Below are positions 21,591 through 39,602 of a stretch of DNA of 64,000 bases, piece after piece. This DNA comes from Parabacteroides goldsteinii DSM 19448 = WAL 12034. Lineage in GTDB: Bacteria > Bacteroidota > Bacteroidia > Bacteroidales > Tannerellaceae. Where the stretch lies: contig NZ_KQ033913.1 in assembly GCF_000969835.1 (NCBI RefSeq), forward strand, positions 2,252,102 through 2,316,101. The letters are read 5' to 3'. A program made the position numbers and the translations under genes. The notes beneath the pieces were generated by a model, which saw only the letters and a list, made by a program, of their open reading frames with translations, was not told where the DNA came from and did no database searches. Within the stretch, counting starts at the first letter, position 1; the number at the start of each line of letters is the position of its first letter.

Positions 21591-22094
21591 TCAACTTGAT
21601 TTTGAATCAAAAAAGTTTTTATGATGGAAGTAATAGTCTAATGTCGTTTCATATTTATATCCACATTTTTCCAAAACTCTTTGTGAAGCCTTGTTCTTAT
21701 CATCTATTCTTGCTTTTATCGTTATATATTGCCTATGTATATATTCTGTTACCGCATTAACACATAGAGTCATAACACCCCGATTTCGATACTGTTGGGA
21801 TAAGGCATAGAAAATTATTGGTTCAAATTTTAATTCACTAATTCCAATAATGCCCCCCAAAGTATCTTCTGATAAGTAAATTCCCCATAATGCACCCTGT
21901 TCCTCCTGGTAAGTTCTTTCAAAAAGTGTAATTATTTCATTCACACTTTCCAAAGTTTCCATATTCGCTATACCCGGTAGATACTTAGATATTTCTCTAT
22001 CAGTTATAAGATTCAATAAATCAGAATTTGAATCCGCTTGTAACAATGATAGAAAACAGCAATCGGGAATTGTCAGTTCCGAAAATAGTTTCAT
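21591..22094 (-). CDS. GNAT-family N-acetyltransferase
   Basis: The 167-residue protein has a RimJ-like GNAT fold: LTIPDCCFLSL at the start, WGIYLSEDTLGGIIGISEL for strands 2-3, an acetyl-CoA-binding turn QYRNRGVMTLCVNAV (a Q/R-x-x-G-x-A-like loop, about 98-112), and NKASQRVLEKCGYKYE at the C-terminal end. It begins 4 bp after the radical SAM gene, so it is co-translated with the peptide-modification module. It may acetylate the processed peptide or an amino-terminal residue; the substrate is inferred only from context. The stop codon lies about 30 bp from the IS edge. Confidence 0.85.
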   Translation of the reverse strand: MKLFSELTIPDCCFLSLLQADSNSDLLNLITDREISKYLPGIANMETLESVNEIITLFERTYQEEQGALWGIYLSEDTLGGIIGISELKFEPIIFYALSQQYRNRGVMTLCVNAVTEYIHRQYITIKARIDDKNKASQRVLEKCGYKYETTLDYYFHHKNFFDSKSS

Positions 22095-22098
22095 AAAT

Positions 22099-23337
22099 TT
22101 ACTTATCAGTCAAGAGTCCTCTTTCTGCCATTTCACAAAATATTAATAAGTAAGCTCTTGTATATGCTATTTGATTATGACAAAATATAGACAATTCGGT
22201 CTCTGATAGTTCTAAAGAAGTTAAACAAATATCACATAAACGAATAATAGGACATTCGGAACAGTGCTTATTTCTGTTCTCTATCAGTTTTATGACATAG
22301 CTGTTAGCAATATCCCAATCAATACCATCATATATATTTCCAATACGATATGTATCACACATCTTCTCACAGACTCTGATGCCACCTTCCCGATCAATAA
22401 ATAGTTTTCTGTTATTAGGCATACAAGTGGAAAGCTGATTTTCTCCTTCGAGTTCAAATATAGGACGTTCCAACCAATCAGAAATGCGTTCATTCAAAAA
22501 TGATTCTAATACAATATATTTCGGATGCTTTATATATGTTTCCAATATGTTGTATAATTGCTTATCTAACTGTTGTGCTTCTATCTGTTTAGTTCCTTTC
22601 TTATAATTAGGTGCTACGTTGGAGATATGTGCCGGTGCTTTGCTTTTTAATAAAGAGTCATTATTCCATAAAACAGCAATAGGAATTAAATCCTCCCAAT
22701 TAGGTAGTGTCATTAATAAATGCACATTGTCACTAAAGAATACAGGATATGTATCTCTTATATAAACCAGATGAGGATATATTTTATCAAATGTACCATT
22801 TCCATTTTCATCTTTTCGATACAGATCATTATAATGCTTTGTACCATCAATGGAAATATTCAATTGAAATTTATTCTGAACGAACCAATCGGCTTTTTCC
22901 GGCGTTAACAGTACACCATTAGTACTTATAAAATAATTAACATTGTTATCGAATAAATCGTTTGCCTGGCTGACACAGTATTGGATAAGCTTGAACTCTA
23001 CCAGGCATTCTCCTCCATAAAAACCAATTGAGACAGAAGATCTACAATGTACTTTTTGGATGAACTTTAACAGGGTGTCAATCCCTGCGGATGTAAGAGA
23101 TTTTTTTCCATGCGTTCTGTTATTTATGTAGTTCCCGGAATAACAACAATATGTACATCGTAAATTGCATTTATCGGTAATTTCTATAATAAATGTGTCA
23201 AGCAGAGGAAAATCCTCAAATCGTCTAAACGATTTAAACCTAAGTCTATCACAAGGATAAGATTTATTTCCTAACTCAATTTCGTTGTTATGTCTGTTAT
23301 AAACATATTCGTTACCACTGACGGTTTTTATTCGCAT
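22099..23337 (-). CDS. Radical SAM/SPASM peptide maturase
   Basis: The 412-residue enzyme has the radical SAM cluster CNLRCTYCC (CxxxCxxC, about residues 57-64) in a TIM-barrel core, GFYGGECLVEF and ISTNGVLL strands, and ISIDGTKHYND. A C-terminal SPASM-type region carries auxiliary-cluster cysteines: CMPNNRKLFID, GIRVCEKMC, RIGNIYDGID and CSECPIIRLCDIC. This architecture is typical of enzymes that install thioether, carbon-carbon or other bonds in ribosomally made peptides. A 55-residue peptide gene ends 28 bp upstream, making it the obvious substrate. A sulfatase-maturing role is less likely given this context. Confidence 0.9.
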   Translation of the reverse strand: MRIKTVSGNEYVYNRHNNEIELGNKSYPCDRLRFKSFRRFEDFPLLDTFIIEITDKCNLRCTYCCYSGNYINNRTHGKKSLTSAGIDTLLKFIQKVHCRSSVSIGFYGGECLVEFKLIQYCVSQANDLFDNNVNYFISTNGVLLTPEKADWFVQNKFQLNISIDGTKHYNDLYRKDENGNGTFDKIYPHLVYIRDTYPVFFSDNVHLLMTLPNWEDLIPIAVLWNNDSLLKSKAPAHISNVAPNYKKGTKQIEAQQLDKQLYNILETYIKHPKYIVLESFLNERISDWLERPIFELEGENQLSTCMPNNRKLFIDREGGIRVCEKMCDTYRIGNIYDGIDWDIANSYVIKLIENRNKHCSECPIIRLCDICLTSLELSETELSIFCHNQIAYTRAYLLIFCEMAERGLLTDK

Positions 23338-23365
23338 TATATTCTCCTATTATATCATACGCCAA

Positions 23366-23533
23366 TTATGTTTTACTTAAATAAGAACCTGGTGATACTT
23401 TTACTCGCAAACAACGTATTTCACAGGCTCCTAATCCCATTGTTACTGTTTCTTTCTGACTCTTAGGTATCTTATTTTTATCATAATTCAACATTTCCAT
23501 CGGAGTCATTGAATGTTTCTTTATTATTTCCAT
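23366..23533 (-). CDS. Candidate 55-residue RiPP precursor peptide
   Basis: A short reading frame lies between the M48 peptidase and the radical SAM gene. Its ATG shares one base with the peptidase stop (TAATG at 23535-23531), a strong sign of translational coupling. The product has a charged leader-like start (MEIIKKHSMTPMEML, then YDKNKIPKSQKE) and a small-residue hinge TMGLGAC followed by a short C-terminal part with two cysteines, CEIRC, and SPGSYLSKT at the end. Two Cys spaced three apart just after a GLGA hinge would suit thioether or disulfide formation. I do not recognise the family. The precursor role is inferred from position and architecture. Confidence 0.7.
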   Translation of the reverse strand: MEIIKKHSMTPMEMLNYDKNKIPKSQKETVTMGLGACEIRCLRVKVSPGSYLSKT

Positions 23534-24348
23534 TATCTGTATTTATTAAGTATTTTATTGTATTCGCCGGAATGATACCACGACCATAACTCTGACGCTC
23601 TTACCACCAACCAGGGCATAGCTGAAGTATTAATAGATAGATATTTTATAACGCTATCCATTGTACCAGAATAATTTTTTTCAAAATCTATTGCTTGCTG
23701 TATAAATGACTCGATATGAATTTGGCTATAACACTTCTTGGGTAATCCAGCCATTTTTATCATTGTGCTTAACGCCACATTGATGTCTTGACAACATAGC
23801 AATCCCATTCGGTCGGCTGTGAAATCAGAAATACGATACCAATTCAATAGAGGCATTTTGACCAGACTCATCCATATTTTCAAGTCGGAGTTTACAATCG
23901 GCATATACAAGGCTTCCATAAACATATGATATGTTTTATGACCGCATTTCATATGTCCTAACTCATGCCCCATCACAAAGAATAATTCATCAGGACTAAG
24001 TAAATCTATAGTGCCAGACTGCAATACCATCCTTTTCTTTTGCTCGCCAATAGTAAAGGAGCTGATATCATAAAACCAATCTGTAGAGCAAGCCGGTATA
24101 TCTTTTACATCCAACAACCGACAGGCTTCCACTAATTGACGATGTATTACCGGCATACTTTTAGAAGTCACATTAATACCTTCTGCAGAATACTCAATTT
24201 CAGCATATTTTTCCATGATATTTACTATGGTCTTATCAACTATAGCTTTAAATCCCGGAATTTTATTGAGCTTTTTTATCGTTGACCTATCTTGAGAATG
24301 CAAAATTTCAGTAGTATCAAGTCCCTTTAATGCAGTTCTAAGTTTCAT
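23533..24348 (-). CDS. M48-family metallopeptidase (third copy, possible peptide processor)
   Basis: The 271-residue soluble protein has the zinc site HELGH (about 128-132) and the downstream motif SDFTADRMGLLCCQD. Where the other two copies in this operon have SEFTAD, this one has SDFTAD, so the third zinc ligand is Asp instead of Glu. ATG 24348 is preferred to a TTG at 24390. It has no clear signal peptide or membrane span, unlike HtpX-type M48 enzymes. Its stop overlaps the start of the candidate precursor peptide, so it is the best candidate for removing the leader. It could equally act on other operon products. Confidence 0.87.
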   Translation of the reverse strand: MKLRTALKGLDTTEILHSQDRSTIKKLNKIPGFKAIVDKTIVNIMEKYAEIEYSAEGINVTSKSMPVIHRQLVEACRLLDVKDIPACSTDWFYDISSFTIGEQKKRMVLQSGTIDLLSPDELFFVMGHELGHMKCGHKTYHMFMEALYMPIVNSDLKIWMSLVKMPLLNWYRISDFTADRMGLLCCQDINVALSTMIKMAGLPKKCYSQIHIESFIQQAIDFEKNYSGTMDSVIKYLSINTSAMPWLVVRASELWSWYHSGEYNKILNKYR

Positions 24349-24390
24349 ACAATTTGTTATTTTTAAACTGGATTTATCCCGATAAACCAA

Positions 24391-25074
24391 TTAAATAGGA
24401 GTTACCATATCGTCGTCATTATCCTCATTGTCTTTTATCTTTGATATAGAAGTTACCTTGTTGGTAAACTTCATTTTTTCCTTTTCTTTCCATTTTCCTA
24501 TTGCAAGTTCAGCCACTTCCAACTGAGCTGTCTTGATTTTTTCCACTATACTTTTCTTTAGATCTATTTCCGTATCATACTGCTCTTGCTGAAGTTTTTC
24601 TTGGCTACTTATAGCAAGTCTATGAATATTCTTTATCATATTGCTATACTCATCAGACTCCAAGTACTCCATCATTTTCTGTTCCTCTGCATATACCATG
24701 CGTTCATACGATCCAATAGGAGATACTATTTTAACTACCGTAGGAAGAATCTCCACGATGAAAAACAATATTCTGATAAGCCATAAAAACATTAATTGAG
24801 TTTTATCAGTGAACTTTCCATTTTTATCAGTCTGCCATACAGCATATTCCAATATTTGGAAGTTACGAATAAAATGATTCCCTCTTAATAATTTATCCTG
24901 TTTGCTTGCTTCCTTCATTTCTCGTTCTTGTGCCACCTTTTCCTCTCGGACCTTATCCTTATTGCGGCTTATAAGCATTTCGTCATAAACATCGTCTTTC
25001 CGTCCTTTTTCTGCAGATTTTGAGTTTCTTTGAAGAATTAAGCTGTCTATTTCTGCTTGTTTTTTGCTTTCCAA
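24391..25074 (-). CDS. DUF4407-like protein, C-terminal part in the -1 frame
   Basis: This 227-residue frame has no ATG near its beginning; its only early start is a TTG at 25074. It holds a charged coiled coil, then a region typical of the end of DUF4407 proteins: LMFLWLIRILFFIVEILPTVVKIVSPIGSYE, given here only as the last membrane helix with EILPTVVK and GSYE. A long charged tail follows. It overlaps the preceding DUF4407-like frame by 28 bp and lies in its -1 frame. A slippery heptamer sits inside the overlap. I read this as the second half of a single 500-residue protein made by frameshifting, or of a gene broken by a one-base homopolymer change. Confidence 0.75.
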   Translation of the reverse strand: MESKKQAEIDSLILQRNSKSAEKGRKDDVYDEMLISRNKDKVREEKVAQEREMKEASKQDKLLRGNHFIRNFQILEYAVWQTDKNGKFTDKTQLMFLWLIRILFFIVEILPTVVKIVSPIGSYERMVYAEEQKMMEYLESDEYSNMIKNIHRLAISSQEKLQQEQYDTEIDLKKSIVEKIKTAQLEVAELAIGKWKEKEKMKFTNKVTSISKIKDNEDNDDDMVTPI

Positions 25075-25892
25075 TTAGATGCGGCTGAGTCCATGTTTTG
25101 TTGGGCAGTCGCTTTCTGTGATTGATACGTACTCATCTCGCTTTGATACTTATTTAGTATACTTTGTGATGGATATTGCTTTCTATTTTCCGCATTATAA
25201 TTTGCAGACACATTATTATATGCTTGCAATGAATTGTCATATTTTAGTTTTGCTACATTGTACTCTGAACTGTTTGGATAATTCTTCTCATCTTCCAGTT
25301 TATCGATTCTCGCTTGCAAAGAGTTTATTTCTCCTTCTAGTTTTAATGATTCAGCTCTCAGTTTGCTAAGGGTAGAATCAGCGTTACTGATACGTGTGGA
25401 CAGCATATCTTCTCCACTATTATCTTTTAATTGCCTACCAAGTATGGATATTTGATTAGCCTCAAAATTTTCCTCATTTGCAGATATATAATCCTCGAAG
25501 ATTACCAATTCCAATGGTATGGAAACCATAAAAGCTACAACAATCGCTAATGCGGCACGCGACAGTAAAGGTACAATGATTGTTTGCCGCTTTTTTGTGG
25601 GGTCCTTTTTTAATGTGATTACGAGACTTCTATCTATACAAAATATCAATATTGCCCATATCAATCCAAATAGGAACGACCAGCCGAAATTACCCGAGTC
25701 ATCTGTGCCCTTTTGTGTGAAATACCATGCGGCGGAGGTGCCTGCACATAATGCGATGAATGCCGTCATCAAAATTGTCGCACCTATCACAGAGAATTTC
25801 TTGTGGTCTGTCCGACACTTCTCTAGGATTGGAATTTCCGCACCTGCTATATTCCAAAGAAGGTGTTGAAAATCGTTATTCATATATTTCAT
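25047..25892 (-). CDS. DUF4407-like membrane protein, N-terminal part
   Basis: The 281-residue frame starts with FQHLLWNIAGAEIPILEKC and has three membrane helices: IGATILMTAFIALCAGTSAAW (about 35-55), FGWSFLFGLIWAILIFCID (about 68-86, ending in the family's DRSL) and ALAIVVAFMVSIPLELVIF (about 113-131). A coiled coil with repeated Lys/Glu/Gln then runs to the end. DUF4407 proteins have the same order with a fourth helix near the C-terminus, and that helix is found in the overlapping -1 frame (24391-25074). The gene overlaps its upstream neighbour by 17 bp. Function of the family is unknown. Confidence 0.85.
   Translation of the reverse strand: MKYMNNDFQHLLWNIAGAEIPILEKCRTDHKKFSVIGATILMTAFIALCAGTSAAWYFTQKGTDDSGNFGWSFLFGLIWAILIFCIDRSLVITLKKDPTKKRQTIIVPLLSRAALAIVVAFMVSIPLELVIFEDYISANEENFEANQISILGRQLKDNSGEDMLSTRISNADSTLSKLRAESLKLEGEINSLQARIDKLEDEKNYPNSSEYNVAKLKYDNSLQAYNNVSANYNAENRKQYPSQSILNKYQSEMSTYQSQKATAQQNMDSAASNWKAKNKQK
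25059..25065 (-). promoter_or_regulatory. A_AAA_AAC slippery heptamer, candidate -1 ribosomal frameshift site
   Basis: On the minus strand the heptamer is in the exact X_XXY_YYZ phase relative to the upstream frame (codons GCA AAA AAC). A -1 slip leads directly into the downstream frame (next codon CAA at 25059-25057) and bypasses the TAG at 25049-25047. The joined product is about 500 residues. I see no strong downstream pseudoknot; only a weak TTCTT/AAGAA stem follows. Confidence 0.55.
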
Positions 25893-26385
25893 TTTTCTTT
25901 TTTTCTAAAAGGTAAAATTGTTTACTTTCTTTCTGAATGAGATGCATTATCAACCAATATGTACAACTCACCATCAAGAATAATGTAATAGGCAACAGCC
26001 AATTTATATATGTATTGAACAGGAATAGGCAATTCATGCCATATCGATTCAGCATAGTCCATCTTTGTTCAATAAATATGTATAAAAAAAGGGGGGAGAA
26101 GCCCCATATAACAAGTATATATTCAATAGTAGCAGCTATATAGAAATCTAAAGTACAACCGGATTTCAAAAAGAATAAGAGATATTTCCTGTATGCAAGT
26201 ACAGCCAATAAGGCAGAAATGAGGCAACTTCCGACAAGCAGACTAAGCATGCAATTTTCAGATACATATAGCAAATATACATTATCGACAATCATTGCTG
26301 AGGCGAATATTACAAATATCCGTTTGGCATCGTTCAACTGTCGACGAAAGGATGGCAGTATTTGTATTGCAGAGTCCTTTCTCAT
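25876..26385 (-). CDS. Four-helix integral membrane protein of unknown function
   Basis: The 169-residue protein has four hydrophobic stretches: RIFVIFASAMIVDNVYLLYV, MLSLLVGSCLISALLAVLAY, FYIAATIEYILVIWGFSPLF and NWLLPITLFLMVSCTYWLIM. The C-terminus is charged and cytoplasm-like, ending in KKKNE. It matches no family I recognise. It overlaps the Ig-like gene upstream by ATGA and the DUF4407-like gene downstream by 17 bp, so the three are made together and may form one envelope complex with the MotA/MotB-like pair. Confidence 0.7.
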   Translation of the reverse strand: MRKDSAIQILPSFRRQLNDAKRIFVIFASAMIVDNVYLLYVSENCMLSLLVGSCLISALLAVLAYRKYLLFFLKSGCTLDFYIAATIEYILVIWGFSPLFLYIFIEQRWTMLNRYGMNCLFLFNTYINWLLPITLFLMVSCTYWLIMHLIQKESKQFYLLEKKKNEIYE

Positions 26386-27425
26386 TTCGTAAATCTAAGT
26401 TTATCAATAAAGATTTTTAACCTATTTTTCAACGTAAGTTTCCACATCGTATGGTTGATTGACTGCGTGGGAACAGTTGACATCCATTCGTCTATGCGAG
26501 CTTTCTTCATGGAGTCTGATAAGAACGAAAGATTTATATCACACGAAGGTATCTCTATTTTCGAAAAAGAGTCAACAAAAGACATATCTACCTTAGGCAG
26601 TTGACGCACACCTATAGATATGGACATCTTTTCTTGTGAAATCATATTTTGTGCTTCAATCACATACTCTGTCGTACAAGAGGGAGAAACTTGCAGGGTA
26701 TTCAGTTTAGTTACATCTTTCATCAGAGGATGTATTCTTACTGACGCAGCATTCTCAACATCCCAATGTAGCGTTACCCTATCTGCTTCTGTTATTACAT
26801 CTTTGTCCGCTGTAAAGCTATTGATTATAACCGGAGCAATAAATTGAATATTCAAACTCTGTTTTGTATAAATAGAGTTATCATCTGCATAGCATGTCAG
26901 TGTGTATGTTTCTGTTTTTGTTGGTATCATCTTATAGTAGTCTTTTCTCGTAACGTCAATTTCGATACCAGAATATGAGAGTATCACTTTATTGGCATTG
27001 CGAACATCCCATTTCAACTTTACTTCTTGACCAGCGTGAACAAGATGAAAAGGTGTTGTAAACGAGTTAATGTATGGAATAGGTTTAGGTGAAAGTCGAA
27101 TGCTACGAGTAGCTCTGTCGTAGTCATTCTCTGCAGTCAGTGTTATTGTCTCAGCTTTGTCAATCCTAAACTCATAGTCACTGTATGCAGAAACATCAAT
27201 ACCATTTATTTGAACAATATCGGCATTCTCTACCTTCCACGTGAAGTGAATAATACTTCCTATATTGTATGTATGCTCAGCGATGCTGAATGACAGGATC
27301 TCAGGTGAAAGTTTTATTCCTTTTTTTGTAGACTCAGGGAACTCATATCGACAATGGCGGCAAAAATTAGCAACTACGGGATTATCAGTTTTGCATTTTG
27401 GACACAATTTCGATTCTACCATCAT
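26382..27425 (-). CDS. Zinc-ribbon protein with three Ig-like repeats
   Basis: The 347-residue protein begins with a zinc ribbon (CPKCKTDNPVVANFCRHC, about residues 8-25). Three similar beta-rich repeats follow, at about 40-112, 115-197 and 199-275. Each contains an HxWxVENA-like phrase: IIHFTWKVENADIV, EVKLKWDVRNANKV and RVTLHWDVENAASV. Each repeat also ends in a TExYTL/YVI-type strand. The C-terminal 70 residues are helical. There is no signal peptide, so it appears cytoplasmic despite its Ig-like folds. The ribbon is close in sequence to that at the end of the MotA/ZorA-like protein encoded just before it (ATGA overlap). This suggests that both ribbons contact the same partner. Confidence 0.8.
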   Translation of the reverse strand: MMVESKLCPKCKTDNPVVANFCRHCRYEFPESTKKGIKLSPEILSFSIAEHTYNIGSIIHFTWKVENADIVQINGIDVSAYSDYEFRIDKAETITLTAENDYDRATRSIRLSPKPIPYINSFTTPFHLVHAGQEVKLKWDVRNANKVILSYSGIEIDVTRKDYYKMIPTKTETYTLTCYADDNSIYTKQSLNIQFIAPVIINSFTADKDVITEADRVTLHWDVENAASVRIHPLMKDVTKLNTLQVSPSCTTEYVIEAQNMISQEKMSISIGVRQLPKVDMSFVDSFSKIEIPSCDINLSFLSDSMKKARIDEWMSTVPTQSINHTMWKLTLKNRLKIFIDKLRFTK

Positions 27426-29170
27426 TCCTTTGCAACTTTCATTGTTGATTCAATTTTAATAGGTTCGCACTGCCAGAAGCTTGTTGCACACCTTCTACAG
27501 AAACTAGCGTCATTTGGATTCTCTGTATAACAGTTAGGGCATTCTTTCATGCCTGTTTCGACATTCACCTTAACATGTTTGTGTGTTCGCTTCCATTGTG
27601 CTAGTTCCTGACGTAGTTGTAGGTTTTTATTAATTACGTCACTAATCAGATTTTGTATAGTAGATAATTGAGTGTTTGTAGTAGTAACACTATTAGAATA
27701 GGCTTCAGTTGCGTCTGTTTCTTTTTGAAGAGCAGTTACAAGTGTGTTAATTTGCGCGGCCAATAAATCATAATCTTTTGTCGCAGTCTTTAAGGTATCG
27801 GATATACCTGCTAAATTATCACCAATATTCTTGGTCGCATCTTCCAATTTTGCTGTGTTATTGGTAACATTAACATCCATTCGGTTTAATAATTTCGATA
27901 ATTCCGTATTGATAGCATTCAACCATTCCGTTTGACTTTGATGCGATAGGATAGTTATATTCTCTTGATAGCCTTCTACCTTTGCAAGCAGTTGAGCTAC
28001 GAACTTCTTGTTATCCTCTGAAAGAGCATTATATTTCTCCTCTGTAATCTGCTTGATGATGTCGAGTAGTTGCTGCTTAAGACTCATTATCTCTGTTGGC
28101 AGATTCTTTGCCAATTCCTCAAATTGAGTTTTCAAAGAACTTATTAACAACAGAAACTCGGAAGAGATGTTACCTATGTTTCGCTCAATTTCAGAGGACA
28201 ACGAACTTATTGCAGTTTGGTTATCTTTCACAATTACCGACACTGCTTGTTTGTTATCTTCTGTTAATGTTTGTAATTGTTGCTTAGTATTGATAGCAAT
28301 ACCTTTTACTTCCTCAGCTAGAGTCACTCCCGTTTCAGAAATAGCTAGTTTTACTCCATCGACAGATTCATTTATGGAAGCAGTGATATTATCTGAAAGT
28401 AGAGTAAGCTGTGCTTTTTCGCTTTCCATAAGTTTTTTAAGAGAGTCTGCATGTACAGTAAATAACGTTTCAAACTTTTCTTTTATCGTGCCATGTGTAG
28501 CCTTTATTATCTCATTGATTCCACTAAGATATTGCTCTGTCAATTCCTGCATGTGTAGTTTCTCTTCCTTATACATGGTACTATAGAATTCTTTCAAGTT
28601 CTCCGTAAAATCAGTAGTCATTTTCTCTACAAGCAAATGTTGAGCTTTCGTTTCCTTAATTAAAGTTACATTTTGTTCTTTAGATACCGCTAGCAATAAA
28701 TCAATCTTTTCTAACAAGCCTTCGCTGGCTGACACTGGATTTACACCCAACTTCTTGTTCGTTTCATAAATCTGCTGACAAATAGCCCCAATATACTGTT
28801 CTGGAGTACCATCATATTGTCTTTTATATGCTTCAGCTTCTTCTTTGTCCTCATTTGCAAAAATGATTTTTGCAATAACCGATGTGGCAATAGCTCCAAT
28901 AATACCTATGATTGAAGTACCAAAAGCTGGAATAATGTTTTTTACAAGCGTATTAATATCATTCCAATTTATGGTCTTACCACCATGAGGAGATAGTGCA
29001 TATACAATACAACAAAATGTACCAAGAATACCTAGCGATGTCCAAACATTTGGAATATAGTTAAGCAACTGTCTTGACTCCGTATGTCTATATTGGCGGT
29101 ACAGACCTCCTGTTATCAATAGTCCAACTAAAAATGTAATAAGATTCATGTGACTGATTAAAATTTCCAT
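27422..29170 (-). CDS. MotA/TolQ/ExbB-type channel protein with long coiled-coil tail and zinc ribbon (ZorA-like)
   Basis: The 582-residue protein has three N-terminal membrane segments: LITFLVGLLITGGLY, VWTSLGILGTFCCIVYAL and FGTSIIGIIGAIATSVIA. The second and third carry the MotA/ExbB-like LGxLGTF and AFxTSIxG patterns. A very long coiled coil (about 110-545) follows, with a C-terminal zinc ribbon CPNCYTENPNDASFCRRC. A MotA-like core plus a long intracellular tail is the design of ZorA in Zorya defence systems, although the zinc ribbon is unusual there. It is encoded 5 bp after a MotB/ZorB-like gene. It is expected to form the ion-conducting stator in the inner membrane. Confidence 0.85.
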   Translation of the reverse strand: MEILISHMNLITFLVGLLITGGLYRQYRHTESRQLLNYIPNVWTSLGILGTFCCIVYALSPHGGKTINWNDINTLVKNIIPAFGTSIIGIIGAIATSVIAKIIFANEDKEEAEAYKRQYDGTPEQYIGAICQQIYETNKKLGVNPVSASEGLLEKIDLLLAVSKEQNVTLIKETKAQHLLVEKMTTDFTENLKEFYSTMYKEEKLHMQELTEQYLSGINEIIKATHGTIKEKFETLFTVHADSLKKLMESEKAQLTLLSDNITASINESVDGVKLAISETGVTLAEEVKGIAINTKQQLQTLTEDNKQAVSVIVKDNQTAISSLSSEIERNIGNISSEFLLLISSLKTQFEELAKNLPTEIMSLKQQLLDIIKQITEEKYNALSEDNKKFVAQLLAKVEGYQENITILSHQSQTEWLNAINTELSKLLNRMDVNVTNNTAKLEDATKNIGDNLAGISDTLKTATKDYDLLAAQINTLVTALQKETDATEAYSNSVTTTNTQLSTIQNLISDVINKNLQLRQELAQWKRTHKHVKVNVETGMKECPNCYTENPNDASFCRRCATSFWQCEPIKIESTMKVAKE

Positions 29171-29175
29171 ATTAC

Positions 29176-29931: not shown

Positions 29932-30255
29932 CGCAATTTGTTGCCTTTTATATCATAGTGACACTCTATACCTTGTGATGTAACTGTCATTACAAAGTTA
30001 ATAAACTTAGCCGTAGAGTCGTATTGTACGAAAATAATAATTTTCTTATACGTAAAGGCTATATAATCCTTTTTGTTTGCTCTTTATTAGTAACAAGTGT
30101 CATTATCAAAATATCCAAATACTTAGAAGATAATAGTATCTTATTTTTGCTTTTATCAAATAGTCGCATATAGGATTTTTGAACAATACGAACAATCCCT
30201 CCACAAAAAACAATCTTCTATATAATCGTCAGCACTCTTATTTTGGGAACAATAT
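29932..30255 (-). promoter_or_regulatory. 324-bp gap with internal promoter and possible gene remnant
   Basis: This is the longest non-coding stretch inside the 18-kb cluster. TAACTTTG at 29993-30000 (minus) fits the -7 consensus and would start a transcript about 55 bases before the MotB-like gene. Beside the truncated vWA gene, another frame stays open from about 30278 down to a TGA at 30156-30158 and contains a CSYC pair. It may be a frameshifted remnant of the vWA protein's end. Nothing else is recognisable. Confidence 0.5.
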
Positions 30256-32253: not shown

Positions 32254-34115
32254 ATTGTTGTGTGATTTTGACTTAGAGTCAAACACATTTCCCAGATTTC
32301 AATAGCTTCTTCTTTTTCCAATGAAATGTATTTTGGACCACGGTTCTCTTTATCATTATAGGGTTCCATGATAACAATATATTCACTTGTCAAATTATAT
32401 TCCGAATAGACTGTATCTTTTATTTTCAATAAGAGATTATTGAACTCTTCTCTCGAAATCTCAAAGTTATTACTACCATTATATGCCCCGCTGATTTGTC
32501 CTGATTGTATTACAATAGTTATATAATCTTCAGGAGCTTTACAAGTATATTTACTGATATTCAATACCTTTACACTGTCATCTCTATCCACTTGTGTTGG
32601 AAAACATTGTTGGATATCAGCCTTAATTTTTTTTGCATCTTCAGTATATTTGTTAATGTCTAATTCTTTTTCTGTTTTATAATTTTCCGCCTCTTGTTCT
32701 ATTTGTTTCTTCTTATCTCTTAGATTTTTCAACTTTCCAATTTCTTTTTCCAGGTCTAGTTCAGCCACCATTTTCTGTTCATTAAGCTTATTTATCTTCT
32801 CTTTTATTTGTTCAATTTCACCGACAAGTATAGAATCACTATCTCGCTTTTCCGAGATATCATTACGTATAAGCACAAGCATATTCGTAATAGCATTTAA
32901 TACATCATCAGTGAGCTTTCTGCGAAAGCTTAGAGTACTGTCAGTACATTCGTTGAAAACTTCACAGTATTTTTTAACATCCGTTTGGAATTCACCAATC
33001 TTGATATTGAATCTTGAGGCAGCTTCAACACATTTGCTTTCTGTTTCTTGTTTAGTTCCTAAATTTTTAAGATTGTTCTCTGCATCATCGAGTTGTGCCT
33101 GAATTCTCTTAATTTCATTCGCGCAGTTATCAATATTTGCCTGAACGTTAGTTATTCTGTTATAATAGTCTTTTATTTGACTCTTAAGGAGACCGTACGT
33201 AGACTTTATTTCATATACCATGCGGTGTAATTCCGTTAATTGTAGCCACTTGTTCTGAAGATTGTAAACATCATCGATTATAAATGCGATGCTCATATCG
33301 TCATGAGAAAATTTATTGCTTTGATAGTCTAGAAAATCACAGCACGCCTTATCAAAGTCTTCATCTTGAAGGTAACACCTTAACACTTCCTCGTAGTCTA
33401 CAATGAGTCTTTCAGATTTAAAATTGCCATCGTGTGAACCTCCATAACAATCTTCAATGCCGTCAGAACACATAAATATTGCGTATGGCTGATTATTTGT
33501 CGAATCAAGGAAAAATCGGAATCGATTGACTGGATTCGACTCACATAATGATGTAGTTATATTATCTTCACAAGCAGAGTCCCAAGGTACGGATTGCTTC
33601 CATTCACCAGAATATGATATTGTAAACAGTCTACCATCGCCTAAATGATAAGCAAATGTAAAATCTTTCGTTTTTACAGCCACAATCAACGTACATCCAT
33701 AAGCAAGTTTTATATTGGACGCTCCTAGTTTTCTTTTTTCTTCCCTAGAAAAGGGATTGGTTTTGGCATCGTTTTTAATAGCTTCATGCCATTGGTCATG
33801 AATTGAGGTAAATAGATTTGAAAAAAACGGGTCCAGCTCTATTCCGAAATCAGGACTATATGAAACAGTGCCTTTGCTTGCCAAGGTATCGTAATAATCA
33901 GAGACAAATTGTTTGGTTTCTTTAATAGCTATTTGGCAAGCAAGACTTGAGCCGATATGACTACGAACATAGGTTTGACTTCCATGACCATCAGAGATTG
34001 CTATAATGCAAGCCTGATTATTATCAAAGGTTTCGCACATCGAAGAGTCCTGACATGGTAATCCAGATTCTTTATGGCTTGCCCCCTCTATTGACTTTAT
34101 GTAATATTTATTCAT
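32250..34115 (-). CDS. PP2C-type Ser/Thr phosphatase with C-terminal coiled coil
   Basis: Residues about 1-280 form a PPM/PP2C phosphatase with its metal-binding motifs: ISDGHGSQ (about 40), YGCTLIVAV, FAYHLGDGRLF, MCSDGIEDC and FSHDDMSIAF. The long coiled coil (about 290-490, many Lys/Glu/Gln heptads) and a folded tail of about 90 residues are additional. It presumably reverses phosphorylation by the kinase encoded two genes upstream. PP2C, TerY-like vWA and zinc-ribbon kinase together make the TerY-phosphorylation triad. A 92-bp gap follows the vWA gene, larger than the operon average, and holds a small inverted repeat with no clear promoter. Confidence 0.92.
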   Translation of the reverse strand: MNKYYIKSIEGASHKESGLPCQDSSMCETFDNNQACIIAISDGHGSQTYVRSHIGSSLACQIAIKETKQFVSDYYDTLASKGTVSYSPDFGIELDPFFSNLFTSIHDQWHEAIKNDAKTNPFSREEKRKLGASNIKLAYGCTLIVAVKTKDFTFAYHLGDGRLFTISYSGEWKQSVPWDSACEDNITTSLCESNPVNRFRFFLDSTNNQPYAIFMCSDGIEDCYGGSHDGNFKSERLIVDYEEVLRCYLQDEDFDKACCDFLDYQSNKFSHDDMSIAFIIDDVYNLQNKWLQLTELHRMVYEIKSTYGLLKSQIKDYYNRITNVQANIDNCANEIKRIQAQLDDAENNLKNLGTKQETESKCVEAASRFNIKIGEFQTDVKKYCEVFNECTDSTLSFRRKLTDDVLNAITNMLVLIRNDISEKRDSDSILVGEIEQIKEKINKLNEQKMVAELDLEKEIGKLKNLRDKKKQIEQEAENYKTEKELDINKYTEDAKKIKADIQQCFPTQVDRDDSVKVLNISKYTCKAPEDYITIVIQSGQISGAYNGSNNFEISREEFNNLLLKIKDTVYSEYNLTSEYIVIMEPYNDKENRGPKYISLEKEEAIEIWEMCLTLSQNHTTI

Positions 34116-34207: not shown

Positions 34208-34966
34208 TTAGTCAAATATGTCCTTAAATATATCATCGTCATCATCGGTCAGTTTAGTCGGAGATGGAGCGGGAATGGGAGATGAAGCGGGTGATGACTC
34301 CGGCTTGATAGGCTTGATAATGTCGTCTGTAATACTATCGTTACTGCGACCTTGTGATTTCGACCCTATAGTCGCTGAATTGATCGCAATAATCCCAAGA
34401 TACTGTCTCAGTTTTTCAGGGTCAGTAGGTATTACCCCTTCTTCTCCTCCAGCAAACTCAACGAGTGCAGAATGGTTCGCTCCTGGGAGTTCCATTGCAA
34501 TTTTGATGGATTGGTTAAACCAGCTGTTCTCTCTTAGTAGTGCCAAACCAGCTGCTGCATCATCTGTAGGCACGCCATCTGTTAAGAGGATTATTATAGG
34601 TGCGTTATTAGCATGCTCTTGTAAGAAACCTCCATTTTTTCTGGAGAGTTTATCGTTGAGCATACTATACGCCTTTCCCATTGCGGTTAAGCCGGATGCC
34701 TGAAGGTCTACCCACTTAAAATCTTCAACATAACCGGGAGCCTCGTTCATCCATTTAGCTCCTGTGCTAAACTCAAGTACGCTGTAACGAATGGCAACAT
34801 CTGCATTTTGTTGTGTAAATTTTTGAACTTCCGGAATTGCTTCCCGCATAGCTGTATTAACAGCTTCGATAGATTGCCCAGCCATACTTCCTGATGTATC
34901 AATCAGGAAGAAAATCGGGGTTAGGGGCATCGCACCTCGTACTTGATCATCTGTTTTAATTGGCAT
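34208..34966 (-). CDS. TerY-like vWA-domain protein
   Basis: The 252-residue protein has a full vWA domain (about 15-205) with an intact MIDAS: LIDTSGSM (about 21-28), the Thr of SGLTAMGKAY (about 93) and the Asp of LLTDGVPTDD (about 131). A Pro/Ser-rich linker and an acidic end (DDDDDIFKDIFD) follow. TerY-type vWA proteins are cytoplasmic and serve as metal-dependent scaffolds, usually with a PP2C phosphatase and a zinc-ribbon kinase, exactly the neighbours here. The acidic tail may be a docking site or a kinase target; this is inference. Confidence 0.92.
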   Translation of the reverse strand: MPIKTDDQVRGAMPLTPIFFLIDTSGSMAGQSIEAVNTAMREAIPEVQKFTQQNADVAIRYSVLEFSTGAKWMNEAPGYVEDFKWVDLQASGLTAMGKAYSMLNDKLSRKNGGFLQEHANNAPIIILLTDGVPTDDAAAGLALLRENSWFNQSIKIAMELPGANHSALVEFAGGEEGVIPTDPEKLRQYLGIIAINSATIGSKSQGRSNDSITDDIIKPIKPESSPASSPIPAPSPTKLTDDDDDIFKDIFD

Positions 34967-34989
34967 CTTTTTTGTTTTTTAAATTAAAC

Positions 34990-36300
34990 TTATATTTTAA
35001 CTAAATCTCTTACTTGTTGAGGATTGACAAGCCTTATTTTCATCTCTTTAATATTACTGAATCTGATTGTCATATTATCGCATAAACGGAAAGCTTGCCC
35101 TTTTGTGATTATCCTTTGCTGAGTACCATAATTGACGCTCCAATCAATCAAAGACAAGTTTCTAATCCCCAATATTTTGTCATTGTTTTGTGTTTTGACA
35201 ACTTCCGCAACTACAACAAAATGACCATCCAAACCTATTTGTGACTCATACAATTTTTGTCCAGCAACTAAGGGAATGTATTCCTTAAAGTTAGATTGCA
35301 TCCAGAAAATAGGGTAAGACTCCCCACATTCTTTACATACACCTTTATCTTTTGGTTCTATATAGGTGACATTGCCACAACTCGGACATTGATTGAGGCA
35401 CGAGCGCCATCTCTGAAAAATTTTTATCCATTCACTTTCCATCATTCGCTCCTGTGGATTTAGTTGATTATTGCGAGAGAAAGCTTTAATAAAAGCCTCT
35501 CTGACAAAAGAGGGTACTCCTCCCCATCGATTTAGTGCATTAGGGGAGAACTCTTGGGATGCTTCATTATCCGAATTAGTAGGATCGAAAATGAATATAG
35601 GATTTGTACCATAAAGATAGGTAATGACCTTTGGAGTCATGCAGGGGAATTTTTCCATATTTTTCCCATGCAAAGGATGATCTACAAATATCAGTCTGAA
35701 GAGTATGATTGCCAAAGAATAATAGTCGGAATATCTGTTAGGATTCCCGTCTAACACTATTTCTGGCGCCATATAACCACGTTTACCTTGTATATTTGAA
35801 ACATTAAAGTCTGCTGATGAGACATTATCATTGTCTCCTATTTGAAGCTCTCCTGAATCGGGATTGAAGAAAAAATTTCCGTCGTTAAGATCAAAATAGG
35901 CAAGTCCTTGTAAATGCAACTTCTGAAAGGCGACACAAAGATTTATAGCAGCATTAATGACAGCATCCTCACTACTGAAGTGATGAATGTTAGCGAGAAA
36001 TTTGCTAAAATCCTTTAAATTCGAATCAACTAAATCCATAACATACCCAATTCCCAACGCGCTGTCTGATATAGCCTTAGGCCAAAGAAAAGAAGATGCT
36101 GGGATTCTACGACTGACATTTCTTTTCAAGTTATCGACAAAAACTGATGATGGTCGTCCTTTATACCATTTCAATGCTCTGGGTTTATCTTGGTATTCAA
36201 TCTGATACACTTCTCCTTGACCACCTTCCCCTATTTTTGAACGGACAATACCCGTTGTTCCATCTGCAAATTGAATTACAGTTCCTCTGATTAATGGCAT
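34990..36300 (-). CDS. Ser/Thr protein kinase with C-terminal zinc ribbon (TerY-P type)
   Basis: Residues about 1-310 form a eukaryotic-like kinase: glycine loop IGEGGQGEVYQ, Lys in PRALKWY (about 45), catalytic loop YFDLNDGNFFF (with Asp and Asn in place but HRD changed to YFD), and a DND in place of DFG (IGDNDNV). GYMAPEIV marks the activation segment. A zinc ribbon (CPSCGNVTYIEP...GVCKECGES, about 315-345) and a beta-rich FHA-like or unassigned C-terminus (about 360-436) follow. The TerY-like vWA and PP2C genes come next, completing the triad. It starts 2 bp after an M48 peptidase gene. Confidence 0.93.
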   Translation of the reverse strand: MPLIRGTVIQFADGTTGIVRSKIGEGGQGEVYQIEYQDKPRALKWYKGRPSSVFVDNLKRNVSRRIPASSFLWPKAISDSALGIGYVMDLVDSNLKDFSKFLANIHHFSSEDAVINAAINLCVAFQKLHLQGLAYFDLNDGNFFFNPDSGELQIGDNDNVSSADFNVSNIQGKRGYMAPEIVLDGNPNRYSDYYSLAIILFRLIFVDHPLHGKNMEKFPCMTPKVITYLYGTNPIFIFDPTNSDNEASQEFSPNALNRWGGVPSFVREAFIKAFSRNNQLNPQERMMESEWIKIFQRWRSCLNQCPSCGNVTYIEPKDKGVCKECGESYPIFWMQSNFKEYIPLVAGQKLYESQIGLDGHFVVVAEVVKTQNNDKILGIRNLSLIDWSVNYGTQQRIITKGQAFRLCDNMTIRFSNIKEMKIRLVNPQQVRDLVKI

Positions 36301-36302
36301 AC

Positions 36303-37145
36303 TTATATTATTAATTTAACATTTGTTCTATATGGTGTTAACAATTTTCGTAGTTCATCATTATTTATCCAATTCAACAATTCCGCAGCTCGCATAACCG
36401 TCCAAGGATGTGAAGCATCGGCTATAGATATGAATTTTATAATTTTATTCAGAGCTTCATAGTCTAATTGTTTAAATTCTATTGCTTGTTGAATAAAGGT
36501 TTGATAATTCATATTATTGAACTCCTTGATAGGCATTCCAGCCATTTTCATAAATGCACGAATAGCAGCACCCTTATCCTGACAGGTTAATAGACCAGCG
36601 CGATCAGCTGTGAATTCGGACATTCTGTCCCAATAATAGAGTGCATATTGAAGAGGTGCAGCGGCAATACTTCCAAACGGAATGGCATCTATAATCATAT
36701 TGATCACCTGAGCCATCATGTGATACAACATGTGATTACTCTTAATGTGTCCACACTCATGACCAATAATAAACATGATTTCATCATCATCACATAAGTC
36801 TATAAGCCCGGAATTTAATACAATTATCGGATGTTCAGAACCAACAGTAAATGCATTTATTCCATATCCCCATTGTATATACAAATCCGGCACATTAGAC
36901 ATATCTAAAATCTGGCAAGCATACTGAATATACTCATAAATTTTAGGATAATTTTCGCTTGTCACCTTCAAATTGCTACCAGTATATTGTACTGTATAAA
37001 TCTTTTCAACGGTATGTTTAGTAATAAAATTACCAGCCATTCCCAATCCCGGAGTGTTCTCCAAAGCACTTAATGCCTTTTTATCGAATGGATGCTCATA
37101 TTGGGAATGATCCAATCCGGTTAATATTTTCTTATTCCTTATCAT
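36303..37145 (-). CDS. M48-family metallopeptidase (second copy)
   Basis: The 280-residue protein has the zinc motif HECGH (about 128-132) and SEFTADRAGLLTCQD (about 175-190) with the Glu expected as third ligand. A moderately hydrophobic stretch between them (MAQVINMIIDAIPFGSIAAA) is not clearly a transmembrane helix. It resembles the other two M48 proteins of this cluster along most of its length, including the final HPWTVMRAAEL segment. It is separated by 21 bp from the first M48 gene and 2 bp from the kinase gene. It may be a regulated protease controlled by the kinase/phosphatase triad. Confidence 0.9.
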   Translation of the reverse strand: MIRNKKILTGLDHSQYEHPFDKKALSALENTPGLGMAGNFITKHTVEKIYTVQYTGSNLKVTSENYPKIYEYIQYACQILDMSNVPDLYIQWGYGINAFTVGSEHPIIVLNSGLIDLCDDDEIMFIIGHECGHIKSNHMLYHMMAQVINMIIDAIPFGSIAAAPLQYALYYWDRMSEFTADRAGLLTCQDKGAAIRAFMKMAGMPIKEFNNMNYQTFIQQAIEFKQLDYEALNKIIKFISIADASHPWTVMRAAELLNWINNDELRKLLTPYRTNVKLII

Positions 37146-37166
37146 ATTTAGTCAGATTTTACTATT

Positions 37167-37952
37167 CTATTTGTATTCTTTAAGTCTTTCTAGTCTTGTA
37201 CAGGATAATGGATGCGCACTAGACAACTCACCTAAATAGGAAATTGAAGAAACTGAAGTACTCAGCCCTAATCGCTGAAACAAACTTATAATAGCATTCA
37301 TATCCTGGCAACATAAAAATCCGGCACGATCTGCTGTAAACTCTGATGTGCGATACCATCGATTCAGCGGTACATCCACAATATCGGTAATGATAGGACC
37401 TAACAATTCTGCACGTTTATTCAGATCTTCCAATAGCCCCTGTACTGTATGAGCTATAAGATGTCCTTGCTGGATATGACCAAGTTCATGACCTAAAAGG
37501 AAGCGCAATTCTGCTTCTCCCAACATCACAACAGCAGGTAAACTAAGAAGAATGATTTGTTCCTTATTCATTTCTACGCTAAGGGCATTAATGCCTTTTA
37601 AACGGGAGGTAATGTACAGTATCGGAATTTTTTTTATATTCAATACAGAGCAACAATTTCGGTAACTTTCCCAAAGTTTAGGATAATTATCCTTTGAAAG
37701 TCGGGAACAGTTTTGTATAATTTCTTCTATCTGTTTCCCGTAAAAACGGTTAGCGATAGTACGCAGGGTTATAGATGTGACAGGATTGTTAAGGACAGCA
37801 TCCATGTAATTGTCTTCAGCATATATATAATTCGACTCTTCAACATTCTTTTTGTTTGCTGAAGGTGAATGTTGTATGCTTGCCGAACTATTGGCAAAGC
37901 TATCTATAACATTCATCAAACCTTTATATGATCTGTCTAATACATCCTGCAT
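37167..37952 (-). CDS. M48-family metallopeptidase (first copy)
   Basis: The 261-residue protein has the zinc motif HELGH (LLGHELGHIQQGH, about 150-162) and SEFTADRAGFLCCQD (about 200-214). Residues 1-60 form a serine- and asparagine-rich, probably flexible extension that the other copies lack. The C-terminus ends soon after the family's AHPLSCTRLERLKEYK-like region. No signal peptide is visible. It begins 12 bp after the anti-sigma-like gene and leads a pair of M48 genes. The three copies look like paralogues that arose within this system. Confidence 0.9.
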   Translation of the reverse strand: MQDVLDRSYKGLMNVIDSFANSSASIQHSPSANKKNVEESNYIYAEDNYMDAVLNNPVTSITLRTIANRFYGKQIEEIIQNCSRLSKDNYPKLWESYRNCCSVLNIKKIPILYITSRLKGINALSVEMNKEQIILLSLPAVVMLGEAELRFLLGHELGHIQQGHLIAHTVQGLLEDLNKRAELLGPIITDIVDVPLNRWYRTSEFTADRAGFLCCQDMNAIISLFQRLGLSTSVSSISYLGELSSAHPLSCTRLERLKEYK

Positions 37953-37964
37953 TTTTATAGCACT

Positions 37965-38306
37965 TTATTCGTTTTCCTGTAATTCATCCCATAAAGCAGA
38001 CATTCTTAAATGCCTTTCTCGTGATTTGTTCATGAGTACATTTGAATTAGTCCCATAGCTGATAGCTTTACGAGGTGCAAATGCTGCTGCTGCATAAGCT
38101 ATGTCTGTGAACGATTGTTCTTTCTGTAAAGCAGTGGCGCTTTCTCCATCCACTACCTCCGAATAATCTTCGACTTCGTCCATAAGTGCAAGAACCAAAT
38201 CTTGCTCTTCCGGATATACCGACAAATAACGACGCACTTGCAGTCGCTCCTCTGTGGTGACATTACCGTCAATATAAGCTGCAATCAATTCATCTGTTAT
38301 TTCCAT
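37965..38306 (-). CDS. Probable anti-sigma-like regulatory protein
   Basis: The 113-residue protein starts ITDELIAAYIDGNVTTEERLQVRRYL, a pattern close to the N-terminal sigma-binding helix region of zinc-finger-type anti-sigma factors (dxLxAYlDGel...ER..v..hL), but it lacks the HxxxCxxC zinc ligands. The remainder is helical and has no membrane span, so it is probably soluble. It overlaps the sigma-like gene by 10 bp. I infer that it binds and controls that sigma factor; the call is moderate. Confidence 0.6.
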   Translation of the reverse strand: MEITDELIAAYIDGNVTTEERLQVRRYLSVYPEEQDLVLALMDEVEDYSEVVDGESATALQKEQSFTDIAYAAAAFAPRKAISYGTNSNVLMNKSRERHLRMSALWDELQENE

Positions 38307-38971
38307 TCGAAATCCTTTTTAAGTTCATTAATAATGATGCGAAGATTATCTTTTGCTCTTCCTTTGAGCATATGGATATATTTATATGTGGGAATAATTT
38401 CATGAATCTCCCCGTTCTCATCTTTACGAGTTTTCAATCGTCCTTCCTTACGACGCAATTCCTCCAGTTGCTTTGCAATCTCACAAGGTTCATAACCATC
38501 GAATTCTCTGAGAAGAATAAAACGCTGATCCTTATCCTCTAACCGTTGAATAGCCTCAATAAGCATAATCATATTGTACTCGTCAACTGTTTTTGGAGCA
38601 GGAGGATTATATTCTCCCTTTTCACCATCTTCACCTATAGAGACCTTTTTTTTCTGAAAATCTATCAATTCCGGCATTATTTTAATAAACAAACTACCGG
38701 CAACCTTCCCAAACCAGGTTCCAAAACTAGATTTCCATCCAAATGAACGTAATACGTGCCAATTATTTGCTTTGAAATGAACAAAAAGCTCTGTTTGCAA
38801 TTCCTCATAATAGAACAGCGAATCATAGTACCTATTACAAAGCTTCTTTAGCAAAGGATCATATTTGATGAATATAATAAAAAGCATAGCTTCTTCATTC
38901 TTTTTTTGCAGAATGAGATCAACTAATTCATGATCTGGAAGGTCTTTATATTGAGTTGATGCAATTATCAT
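38297..38971 (-). CDS. Divergent sigma-70/ECF-like factor
   Basis: The 224-residue protein has an ECF-like layout: a region-2-like N-terminal half (DHELVDLILQKKNEEAMLFIIF, YYEELQTELFVHFKAN, WKSSFGTWFGKVAGSLF) and a region-4-like C-terminal half (IQRLEDKDQRFILLREFDGYEPCEIAKQL, then a helix containing YIHMLKGRAKDNLRI). A loop of about 25 residues (GRLKTRKDENGEIHEI) interrupts region 4, which is unusual. It follows the UpxY-like gene by 37 bp and overlaps the anti-sigma-like gene. It likely drives operon expression or a linked regulon. Confidence 0.75.
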   Translation of the reverse strand: MIIASTQYKDLPDHELVDLILQKKNEEAMLFIIFIKYDPLLKKLCNRYYDSLFYYEELQTELFVHFKANNWHVLRSFGWKSSFGTWFGKVAGSLFIKIMPELIDFQKKKVSIGEDGEKGEYNPPAPKTVDEYNMIMLIEAIQRLEDKDQRFILLREFDGYEPCEIAKQLEELRRKEGRLKTRKDENGEIHEIIPTYKYIHMLKGRAKDNLRIIINELKKDFEWK

Positions 38972-39008
38972 GTTGATGTTCCAATATCTTTATTTATATC
39001 TCAATATA

Positions 39009-39602
39009 TTAGGATTCAATCTTCTCCACATCCGCCATGGAAATTTTTAACTTCGCACATCCAAGCAAGCTTATCTCCACTATCAAGAATGTTTCTCCGC
39101 ATTTTTGCTGAAGAATCTTACCTTCAATGCCGATTAGTTTGCCTCTGACTACCTTAACCCTGTCACCTATATGCAATGGTAACATTTCAATGGTTATAGG
39201 AGCATCTGCTTTTTCTAGCAGTTCCCGAAAAGTATCTATCTGATTTTCTGGTATTTTAGCTATTGGATGTCTGCCGTTTTTATCCTTTTGGCTCTGATCT
39301 ACCATAAAACGTTTGACGAATGGCATGTTCACAATTATCTTTCGTTCGTTTTCTGTGCAATAAACGAAAATCATAGCAGCAATTAGAACACGATCTACTA
39401 TCTTAACTGTTCCATTACGCCAAATGCGCTCTTCGCTTTGGATGGGAACAAAAACTTCATATCCTTCATTCTGCAAAACCTGAGCATATTTCTTTTCAGA
39501 ACGGTTATTTACTATAGCAACAAACCATTCTTTTTTTTCGATACTTGGCACGCCTACGGCGTCGTCAACTTTTTGAGTTGTCGTTTCCTTTAAATTCATC
39601 AT
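39009..39602 (-). CDS. UpxY-family transcription antiterminator (NusG-like)
   Basis: The 197-residue protein has a NusG N-terminal domain (about 24-130: EWFVAIVNNRSEKKYAQVLQNEGYEVFVP, then MIFVYCTENERKIIVNMPFVKRFMVDQ) and a C-terminal KOW-like region (about 140-197: LHIGDRVKVVRGKLIGIEGKI). In Bacteroidales, UpxY proteins are typically first in capsule operons and let polymerase read through long leader regions. Here it heads an operon with no polysaccharide genes, so it probably sustains transcription over the 18-kb cluster. M1 or M2 may start it. A TATATTTG -7 element lies about 83 bases upstream. Confidence 0.9.
   Translation of the reverse strand: MMNLKETTTQKVDDAVGVPSIEKKEWFVAIVNNRSEKKYAQVLQNEGYEVFVPIQSEERIWRNGTVKIVDRVLIAAMIFVYCTENERKIIVNMPFVKRFMVDQSQKDKNGRHPIAKIPENQIDTFRELLEKADAPITIEMLPLHIGDRVKVVRGKLIGIEGKILQQKCGETFLIVEISLLGCAKLKISMADVEKIES

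Follow-up and report, generated by a model that had tools for sequence, protein, structure and literature searches.

Do the motor, kinase, peptidase and peptide-modifying genes packed together in Parabacteroides goldsteinii DSM 19448 = WAL 12034 form one system, and what might such a system do? The genes lie on the minus strand between positions 39602 and 21591 of the window, that is, of the whole 64,000-nucleotide stretch analysed here (contig NZ_KQ033913.1, positions 2,252,102 to 2,316,101). A first-pass annotation, made from the sequence alone, had suggested a regulated envelope stress or phage-defence system. By comparing the cluster with a sister locus in Bacteroides salyersiae (L001, with its neighbouring stretches L038 and L039), we arrive at the reading of one conserved multi-gene system around a Zorya-like motor, the MotA tail of which carries a zinc ribbon. 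From its genes, such a system would probably act against phages, and we give this reading about an even chance.

Conservation of the cluster in Bacteroides salyersiae

The cluster consists of 21 minus-strand open reading frames (ORFs), with 18 of the 20 junctions shorter than 40 bp and eight overlaps, which agrees with the earlier description of about 20 overlapping or closely spaced genes running from an UpxY-like to a GNAT gene. The gene types named there were confirmed by Pfam, NCBIfam and PADLOC scans. In B. salyersiae, the order and strand of 16 gene families are the same as in the window, with UpxY as the first and a DUF1232 gene as the last. Consequently, the claim of one conserved cluster holds, and a chance juxtaposition of these genes is rejected. 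The kept order even runs beyond the GNAT gene, where the cluster had been thought to end, and continues to 18623 with a 142-residue gene and the DUF1232 gene.

The identities to the sister locus range widely along this order: UpxY 33%, the sigma factor 38%, the zf-HC2-like protein 41%, M48 peptidase a (M48a) 44%, M48b 88%, the transglutaminase-like protein 30%, MotB 52%, MotA 29%, the zinc-ribbon/Ig-like protein 39%, the four-transmembrane protein 35% (over 74 residues), the two DUF4407 halves 57 and 50% (both to one single ORF), M48c 76%, the radical SAM protein 44% and GNAT 28%. For the last two families, the identities are 71% (142-residue protein) and 46% (DUF1232, in L038). Divergence was computed for 10 gene pairs, a set that leaves MotA and five other families outside. 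Synonymous sites are near saturation in all 10 pairs (pS 0.64-0.87), and the nonsynonymous divergence (dN) is 0.12-0.18 for M48b, M48c and the 142-residue gene and 0.40-0.64 for the remaining seven pairs. Since collinearity is found together with near-saturated synonymous divergence, the gene order has been kept while the sequences diverged, an argument for selection on the unit; the two peptidases M48b and M48c and the 142-residue protein are kept most strictly within it.

The chromosomal address of the unit differs between the two genomes. In the window, a PMM gene (42816) and a 170-residue gene (10503-11015) flank the cluster at a distance of 31.8 kb from each other, whereas their relatives in B. 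salyersiae (L072; 77% and 67% identity) are 209 bp apart; thus, the cluster lies in an island and occupies a different site in B. salyersiae. Among 201 sampled genomes of the family of B. salyersiae, the PMM protein reaches at most 77% identity. In a further region (L076), one ORF of at least 100 residues separates the two relatives, and the second gene was not found in the other three of the five fetched regions. A search of two 300-bp flanks for the island ends returned only an 11-bp direct repeat, which is uninformative.

The copy in the sister locus is free of the breaks seen in the window copy. Four of its genes, three with a zinc ribbon and one with a BACON domain, are missing from the window or present there only as a remnant. 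A scan of species genomes with a MotB profile gave 35 loci, and among those matching most of MotB, only two exceeded 32% identity, namely the sister locus (52%) and a locus of Candidatus Colivivens equi (L016, 39%). The latter contains an M48 gene, a radical SAM gene, an 82-residue Cys-rich ORF and a 132-residue ORF, followed by MotA and MotB. The same order was recovered in one other Bacteroidales genome, and of the window genes L016 contains only M48, radical SAM, Cys-rich ORF and motor pair, in a different arrangement. The L016 stretch (1-15963) also encodes AAA ATPases, together with a protein that is unclassified but resembles a GTPase, and may be a second architecture of the same idea; the GTPase and GAP1 look of L016 genes is by eye only, and no Pfam match was obtained for it.

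The motor pair and its zinc-ribbon tail

The MotB/ZorB-like protein (29176-29931) has one transmembrane (TM)-like segment, an OmpA-like domain (32.5 bits) and a residue, Asp21, that is invariant in all 40 rows of an alignment made from the window protein and 39 of the 120 listed MotB relatives. The MotA/ZorA-like protein (27422-29170), whose PF01618 score of 21.5 bits falls just under the cut-off of 22.9, has a long tail that ends in a zinc ribbon (residues 544-561). The best PADLOC matches of the pair are ZorB2 (108 bits) and ZorA2 (56 bits). Against the PDB, the first four matches of a MotA-family profile (39 sequences) are 8qyd, 8qyy, 8qyk and 8vvn, and the first three of the MotB profile are 8vvi, 8vvn and 8qyd. 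The 8qy entries carry the name ZorA, and 8VVN and 8VVI are type I and type II ZorAB according to the accessible passages of PMC11890865. On the other hand, the NCBIfam cut-offs are not reached (ZorA 24 of 250 bits, ZorB2 53 of 400), and the ZorC, ZorD, ZorE, ZorF and ZorG models match none of the 21 ORFs. We looked for the type-defining genes without finding them and therefore do not file the system as Zorya. The Zor-like ion motor predicted earlier is thus supported as closest to ZorA/ZorB, and membership in Zorya proper is not supported.

The tail of MotA distinguishes this motor from the ZorA-like proteins examined. A zinc ribbon ends the tail in 59 of 66 relatives, many of them close to each other and drawn from the only candidates scored, the 7997 sharing most words, compared with none of nine other ZorA-like proteins (from L071, L070 and seven of the 35 loci in the MotB-profile scan). 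The count rests on the survey of 66 relatives and not on the MotA alignment, as the latter contains 38 of the 66 and all seven relatives without a ribbon lie outside it. Judged from sequence patterns, the C-terminal ribbon is a new feature of this motor. In the window, four proteins (MotA and three others) carry zinc ribbons, as do several proteins of the sister locus; in L016, the ribbon sits on the M48 protein and not on MotA. A change in the cytoplasmic part of ZorA has been proposed to recruit a nuclease (PMC11890865, accessible part), and the MotA-tail ribbon may be the docking point here.

In L070, a plasmid locus of Prevotella, an M48 gene also lies close to zorAB; this locus was considered as the same system and rejected. 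Its ZorA is nearest E. coli ZorA2 among the sequences compared, has no zinc-ribbon tail and is encoded in the order A-B.

The signalling cassette

In the window, M48b and the transglutaminase-like gene are separated by genes for a Ser/Thr kinase with a C-terminal zinc ribbon (34990-36300, ribbon at residues 305-325; PF00069, 54.9 bits), a vWA protein (34208-34966; PF13519, 32.5 bits), a PP2C phosphatase with a long coiled-coil-like C-terminal part (32250-34115; PF13672, 103 bits) and a zinc-ribbon protein (31528-32286, pattern at residues 224-242; Zn_ribbon_3, 21.6 bits, under the cut-off). The DxSxS motif of the vWA protein (DTSGS) and the DGHG motif of PP2C are intact. This block agrees in domains and motifs with the TerY-phosphorylation (TerY-P) triad named in the first-pass annotation. 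However, the TerY label of the vWA protein finds no PADLOC match and rests on its position and its MIDAS motif, whereas the corresponding proteins of the sister locus do match the TerY model. Weak PADLOC matches link the kinase to PD-T4-6 and mad6 (42 and 40 bits) and the coiled-coil part of PP2C to JetC and LmuB (up to 20 bits).

At the same place, the sister locus has two vWA genes, PP2C and two kinases, with PADLOC scores of 90.7 and 96.9 bits (TerY), 47.3 bits (PP2C) and 148 and 131 bits (STK_OB). Between the two cassettes, the kinases alone match at an E value of 1e-3 (24% identity). As the cassette genes differ between the loci, the signalling block appears to be an exchangeable cassette whose place in the cluster is kept. 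According to PMC11090510, modules of the TerY-P-like kind that contain a kinase-OB protein work against phages on their own.

M48 peptidases, candidate peptide and radical SAM protein

The three M48 peptidases each carry HExxH and match PF01435: M48a (37167-37952; 51 bits, HELGH), M48b (36303-37145; 84 bits, HECGH) and M48c (23533-24390; 54 bits, HELGH). In the third-ligand motif, M48c has Asp (SDFTADR), and M48a and M48b have Glu. M48b finds no PDB relative at an E value of 0.001, and M48a matches PADLOC RmrA weakly (16 bits). Together with the DUF4407, transglutaminase-like and radical SAM genes, the three peptidases were already listed in the earlier annotation, and domain scans bear all of them out.

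A short ORF absent from the first list was found between M48c and the radical SAM gene. It encodes a 55-residue candidate precursor peptide (23366-23533, containing GLGACEIRCLR), and its start shares 1 bp with the stop of M48c. A peptide search returned two proteins, at 98% and 85% identity. Short ORFs also lie beside the radical SAM gene in the sister locus (59 residues, at the same place) and L016 (82 residues), and no NCBIfam model matches any of the three. The window and sister ORFs do not match in blastp at 1e-3; ACxxxCLR is common to both by eye only. The radical SAM protein (22099-23337; PF04055, 51 bits) contains CxxxCxxC in the form CNLRCTYC. Its best NCBIfam matches are to models for maturases, of Cys-rich peptides among others, and none of the 25 shown of 62 models reaches its cut-off (best, CcpM, 186 of 500 bits); its best PDB match is 5wgg, and PADLOC pVip gives a weak 43 bits. 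The peptide-maturation module named in the first-pass annotation is thus supported, as a radical SAM protein with a candidate precursor.

Remaining genes of the cluster

At its upstream end, the cluster begins with a UpxY-family NusG-like antiterminator (39009-39602; NF033644, 111.2 bits against a cut-off of 100). Then follow two genes not in the first list, an ECF-like sigma factor (38297-38971; NCBIfam sigma70-ECF, 32.4 bits, under the cut-off) and a 113-residue zf-HC2-like protein, a possible anti-sigma factor (37965-38306; zf-HC2, 18.3 bits, under the cut-off). The transglutaminase-like protein (30654-31544; PF01841, 44.5 bits) has a Cys and a spaced His-Asp pair. Two further additions precede MotB. 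The first is a truncated vWA-like gene of 126 residues (30256-30636) with a DQSPS motif, which matches the second vWA protein of the sister locus weakly (E 0.003) and has no Pfam match. The second is a decayed zinc-ribbon gene with stops in all three frames (29932-30255), recognized by two tblastn pieces against ZnR2 of the sister locus (E 9e-20). Downstream of MotA lie a protein with an N-terminal zinc ribbon (26382-27425; pattern at residues 8-25), the remainder of which looks Ig-like by eye, and a protein with four TM-like segments (25876-26385).

DUF4407 is encoded in two parts, N-terminal (25047-25892; PF14362, 117 bits) and C-terminal in another frame (24391-25074; PF14362, 21 bits, under the cut-off). 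The halves meet at 25047-25074 in an A-run, GCA AAA AAC, that matches the pattern of a -1 slippery heptamer, and the sister locus has one ORF; the split could be a mutation, a programmed frameshift or an assembly error. The GNAT acetyltransferase (21591-22094; Acetyltransf_3 PF13302, 62 bits) is parted from the conserved 142-residue gene (19635-20063) by a transposase gene (20113-21330; PF01609, 33 bits) that is missing at the same place in the sister locus. The DUF1232 gene (18623-19042; PF06803, 39 bits) is the last collinear gene; these three are also on the minus strand.

Terminator-like sites inside the cluster number 11 against 10.1 expected and promoter-like sites 102 against 84.9, and transcription units are left unclaimed. 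A promoter pattern of the Bacteroides type has no match within the cluster or immediately before UpxY, and neither tRNA nor Rfam matches occur in the window.

Genomic surroundings

The proposed defence-island context is visible in the sister locus. Downstream of it, the 142-residue and DUF1232 genes are followed by SIR2, Schlafen AlbA_2 and the Gabija genes GajA (700 bits) and GajB (718 bits), in addition to the STK_OB and TerY model matches of its cassette. In L038 (reverse complement 1559-8454), the SIR2 and Schlafen AlbA_2 genes stand directly ahead of Gabija. An M48 gene is also present in the RRDM island of E. coli, which has a tested anti-phage effect; the available passages of PMC12255303 are silent on whether M48 is needed.

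M48b found a match in five of 157 genomes searched within the genus of B. salyersiae, one of them B. salyersiae itself. In three of the other four, a relative of the 142-residue protein is encoded near the M48b relative, and in two of those a TIR protein is also found; no motor gene occurs in the fetched stretches around the M48b relatives. M48, an 85-residue gene and a gene of the 142-residue family recur in the Bacteroides group (L046 14895-16570, L048 9180-12910 and L049 7220-10529), and this module may itself constitute a small, separate defence system.

In the same island of the window, an ADP-ribosylglycohydrolase gene adjoins a full-length RelA/SpoT-type gene (14242-17280), and a BT4734-like/VapE-like gene lies near the left end (11164-13221; PADLOC PrimPol, 93 bits). 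Immediately upstream of upxY, the stretch 39801-42613 encodes a response regulator (LytTR-type by eye) and a TPR histidine kinase, the latter with at most 47% identity to proteins in a sample of 156 genomes from the genus to which B. salyersiae belongs. It is possible that this pair regulates the cluster.

Discussion

Based on the results presented above, a working order of events may be outlined. The periplasmic domain of the MotB-like protein would sense a disturbance of the envelope or peptidoglycan, and the motor would rotate its tail in the cytoplasm. With its terminal zinc ribbon, the tail may then dock those other proteins of the cluster that carry a ribbon. Phosphorylation through the kinase/vWA/PP2C cassette, which we infer to act on the motor or the peptide, would define the threshold. 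Finally, the M48 peptidases, predicted to be cytoplasmic from hydropathy, would cleave the radical-SAM-modified peptide or a host target and so replace the Zorya nuclease, with protection from phages as the presumed outcome. UpxY and the sigma factor may allow the long gene run to be expressed as one transcript.

Compared with known systems, the motor resembles that of Zorya types I-III in its ZorA-like channel protein with a long tail and in the TM segment, conserved Asp and OmpA-like domain of its ZorB-like partner. It differs in gene order, as MotB precedes MotA in the window while E. coli Zorya II is arranged zorA-zorB-zorE, in the zinc ribbon on the MotA tail and in being embedded in a 21-ORF run with a kinase cassette, M48, DUF4407 and radical SAM genes. 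The adjacent kinase with its C-terminal zinc ribbon, MIDAS vWA protein and PP2C resemble the TerY-P triad (vWA, PP2C and kinase-zinc ribbon or kinase-OB); however, the cassette is tied here to a motor and peptidases, whereas the triad is tied to restriction or CoCoNuT nucleases in the available part of PMC11090510. For conflict systems with GAP1-N2-type GTPases, a membrane-near role has been proposed; the window has no recognized GTPase or GAP1, and the accessible passages on those systems, which are described mainly from other phyla, mention no ion motor (PMC7159879). The RRDM island, whose anti-phage effect has been tested, likewise contains a gene for an M48-family peptidase, but it combines Type I restriction with DarTG and, in the passages available, shows no motor, kinase or peptide maturation (PMC12255303). 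No description of the combination of motor, cassette, M48 and radical SAM genes was found in the open-licence papers searched.

Several observations weigh against one conserved anti-phage system. The conserved order rests on one full locus, since MotB-profile searches of sampled genomes matched the two seed genomes only (2 of 399, 1 of 158, 1 of 393, 0 of 15, 1 of 17 and 1 of 395 genomes in overlapping samples, at E limits of 1e-25 or 1e-20, with at most six candidates scored per genome in the samples of 399, 393 and 395). In L016, the motor order is A-B, the MotA tail lacks a zinc ribbon, and the 16 kb of the locus contain no kinase cassette. The PADLOC TerY, PP2C and STK_OB models match the cassette of the sister locus and not that of the window, and the window copy shows partial decay, with DUF4407 split, a vWA gene truncated, a zinc-ribbon gene reduced to a remnant and a transposase gene in the run. 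Neither a nuclease domain nor another classical effector was found by Pfam in the 20 of 21 ORFs scanned, and among viral contigs, 17 stretches fitted the search pattern without one being a relative. In addition, a sigma factor and HtpX-like peptidases would fit a stress system equally well.

This last point leads to the alternative that survives best, which we consider possible though not probable. Under it, the cluster would be a regulon for envelope stress and peptidoglycan homeostasis: the sigma/zf-HC2 pair would sense stress, the HtpX-like M48 peptidases would serve quality control, the motor would probe or remodel the envelope, and phages would not be the target. The presence of the sigma/zf-HC2 pair near the start of both loci is consistent with this, as are the HtpX models that match M48b (under their cut-offs), the OmpA-like domain on MotB, DUF4407 and the four-TM membrane proteins. 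Nevertheless, the M48 proteins have no or one TM-like segment by hydropathy, which distinguishes them from HtpX. Moreover, the cluster is rare and accessory, as the matches in seed genomes only indicate, and occupies different chromosomal addresses in the two loci, of which the B. salyersiae one adds Gabija downstream and the STK_OB/TerY cassette.

The joint occurrence of M48, a peptide ORF and radical SAM in the window and in the sister locus, and in another order in L016, would also be expected if the cluster made a ribosomally synthesized and post-translationally modified peptide. Radical SAM and GNAT would then modify the 55-residue peptide, M48c would remove its leader, and the motor would energize export against competitors. 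We regard this as improbable: no exporter or secretion gene is among the Pfam matches (20 of 21 ORFs scanned), the window peptide has two Cys only, no immunity gene was recognized, and the motor family is nearest a defence motor. The least probable explanation, that independent defence and stress modules are merely adjacent, draws on the differing signalling cassettes, the habit of islands to gather modules and the M48 and 142-residue genes that lie without a motor gene in the fetched stretches of three other genomes, but it is at odds with the collinearity of 16 families despite near-saturated synonymous divergence, with the tight packing (18 of 20 junctions shorter than 40 bp) and with the zinc ribbons of four window proteins.

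The reading of one motor-centred system also has a bolder form, which we put forward as doubtful. In it, the cluster would represent a new class of immune machine, in which an ion-driven Zorya-type rotor relays the signal of infection to cytoplasmic metallopeptidases and, through them, to an intracellular radical-SAM-modified peptide, without a nuclease; docking by zinc ribbons and an exchangeable kinase/phosphatase cassette would form the relay. The unbroken locus of B. salyersiae makes the motor-centred reading as a whole testable in a deposited strain, DSM 18765. If that reading is true, the same motor sensor could drive a quite different output, as Zorya motors have been proposed to signal to nucleases, and motor-based and kinase-based bacterial immunity would be joined in one gene unit.

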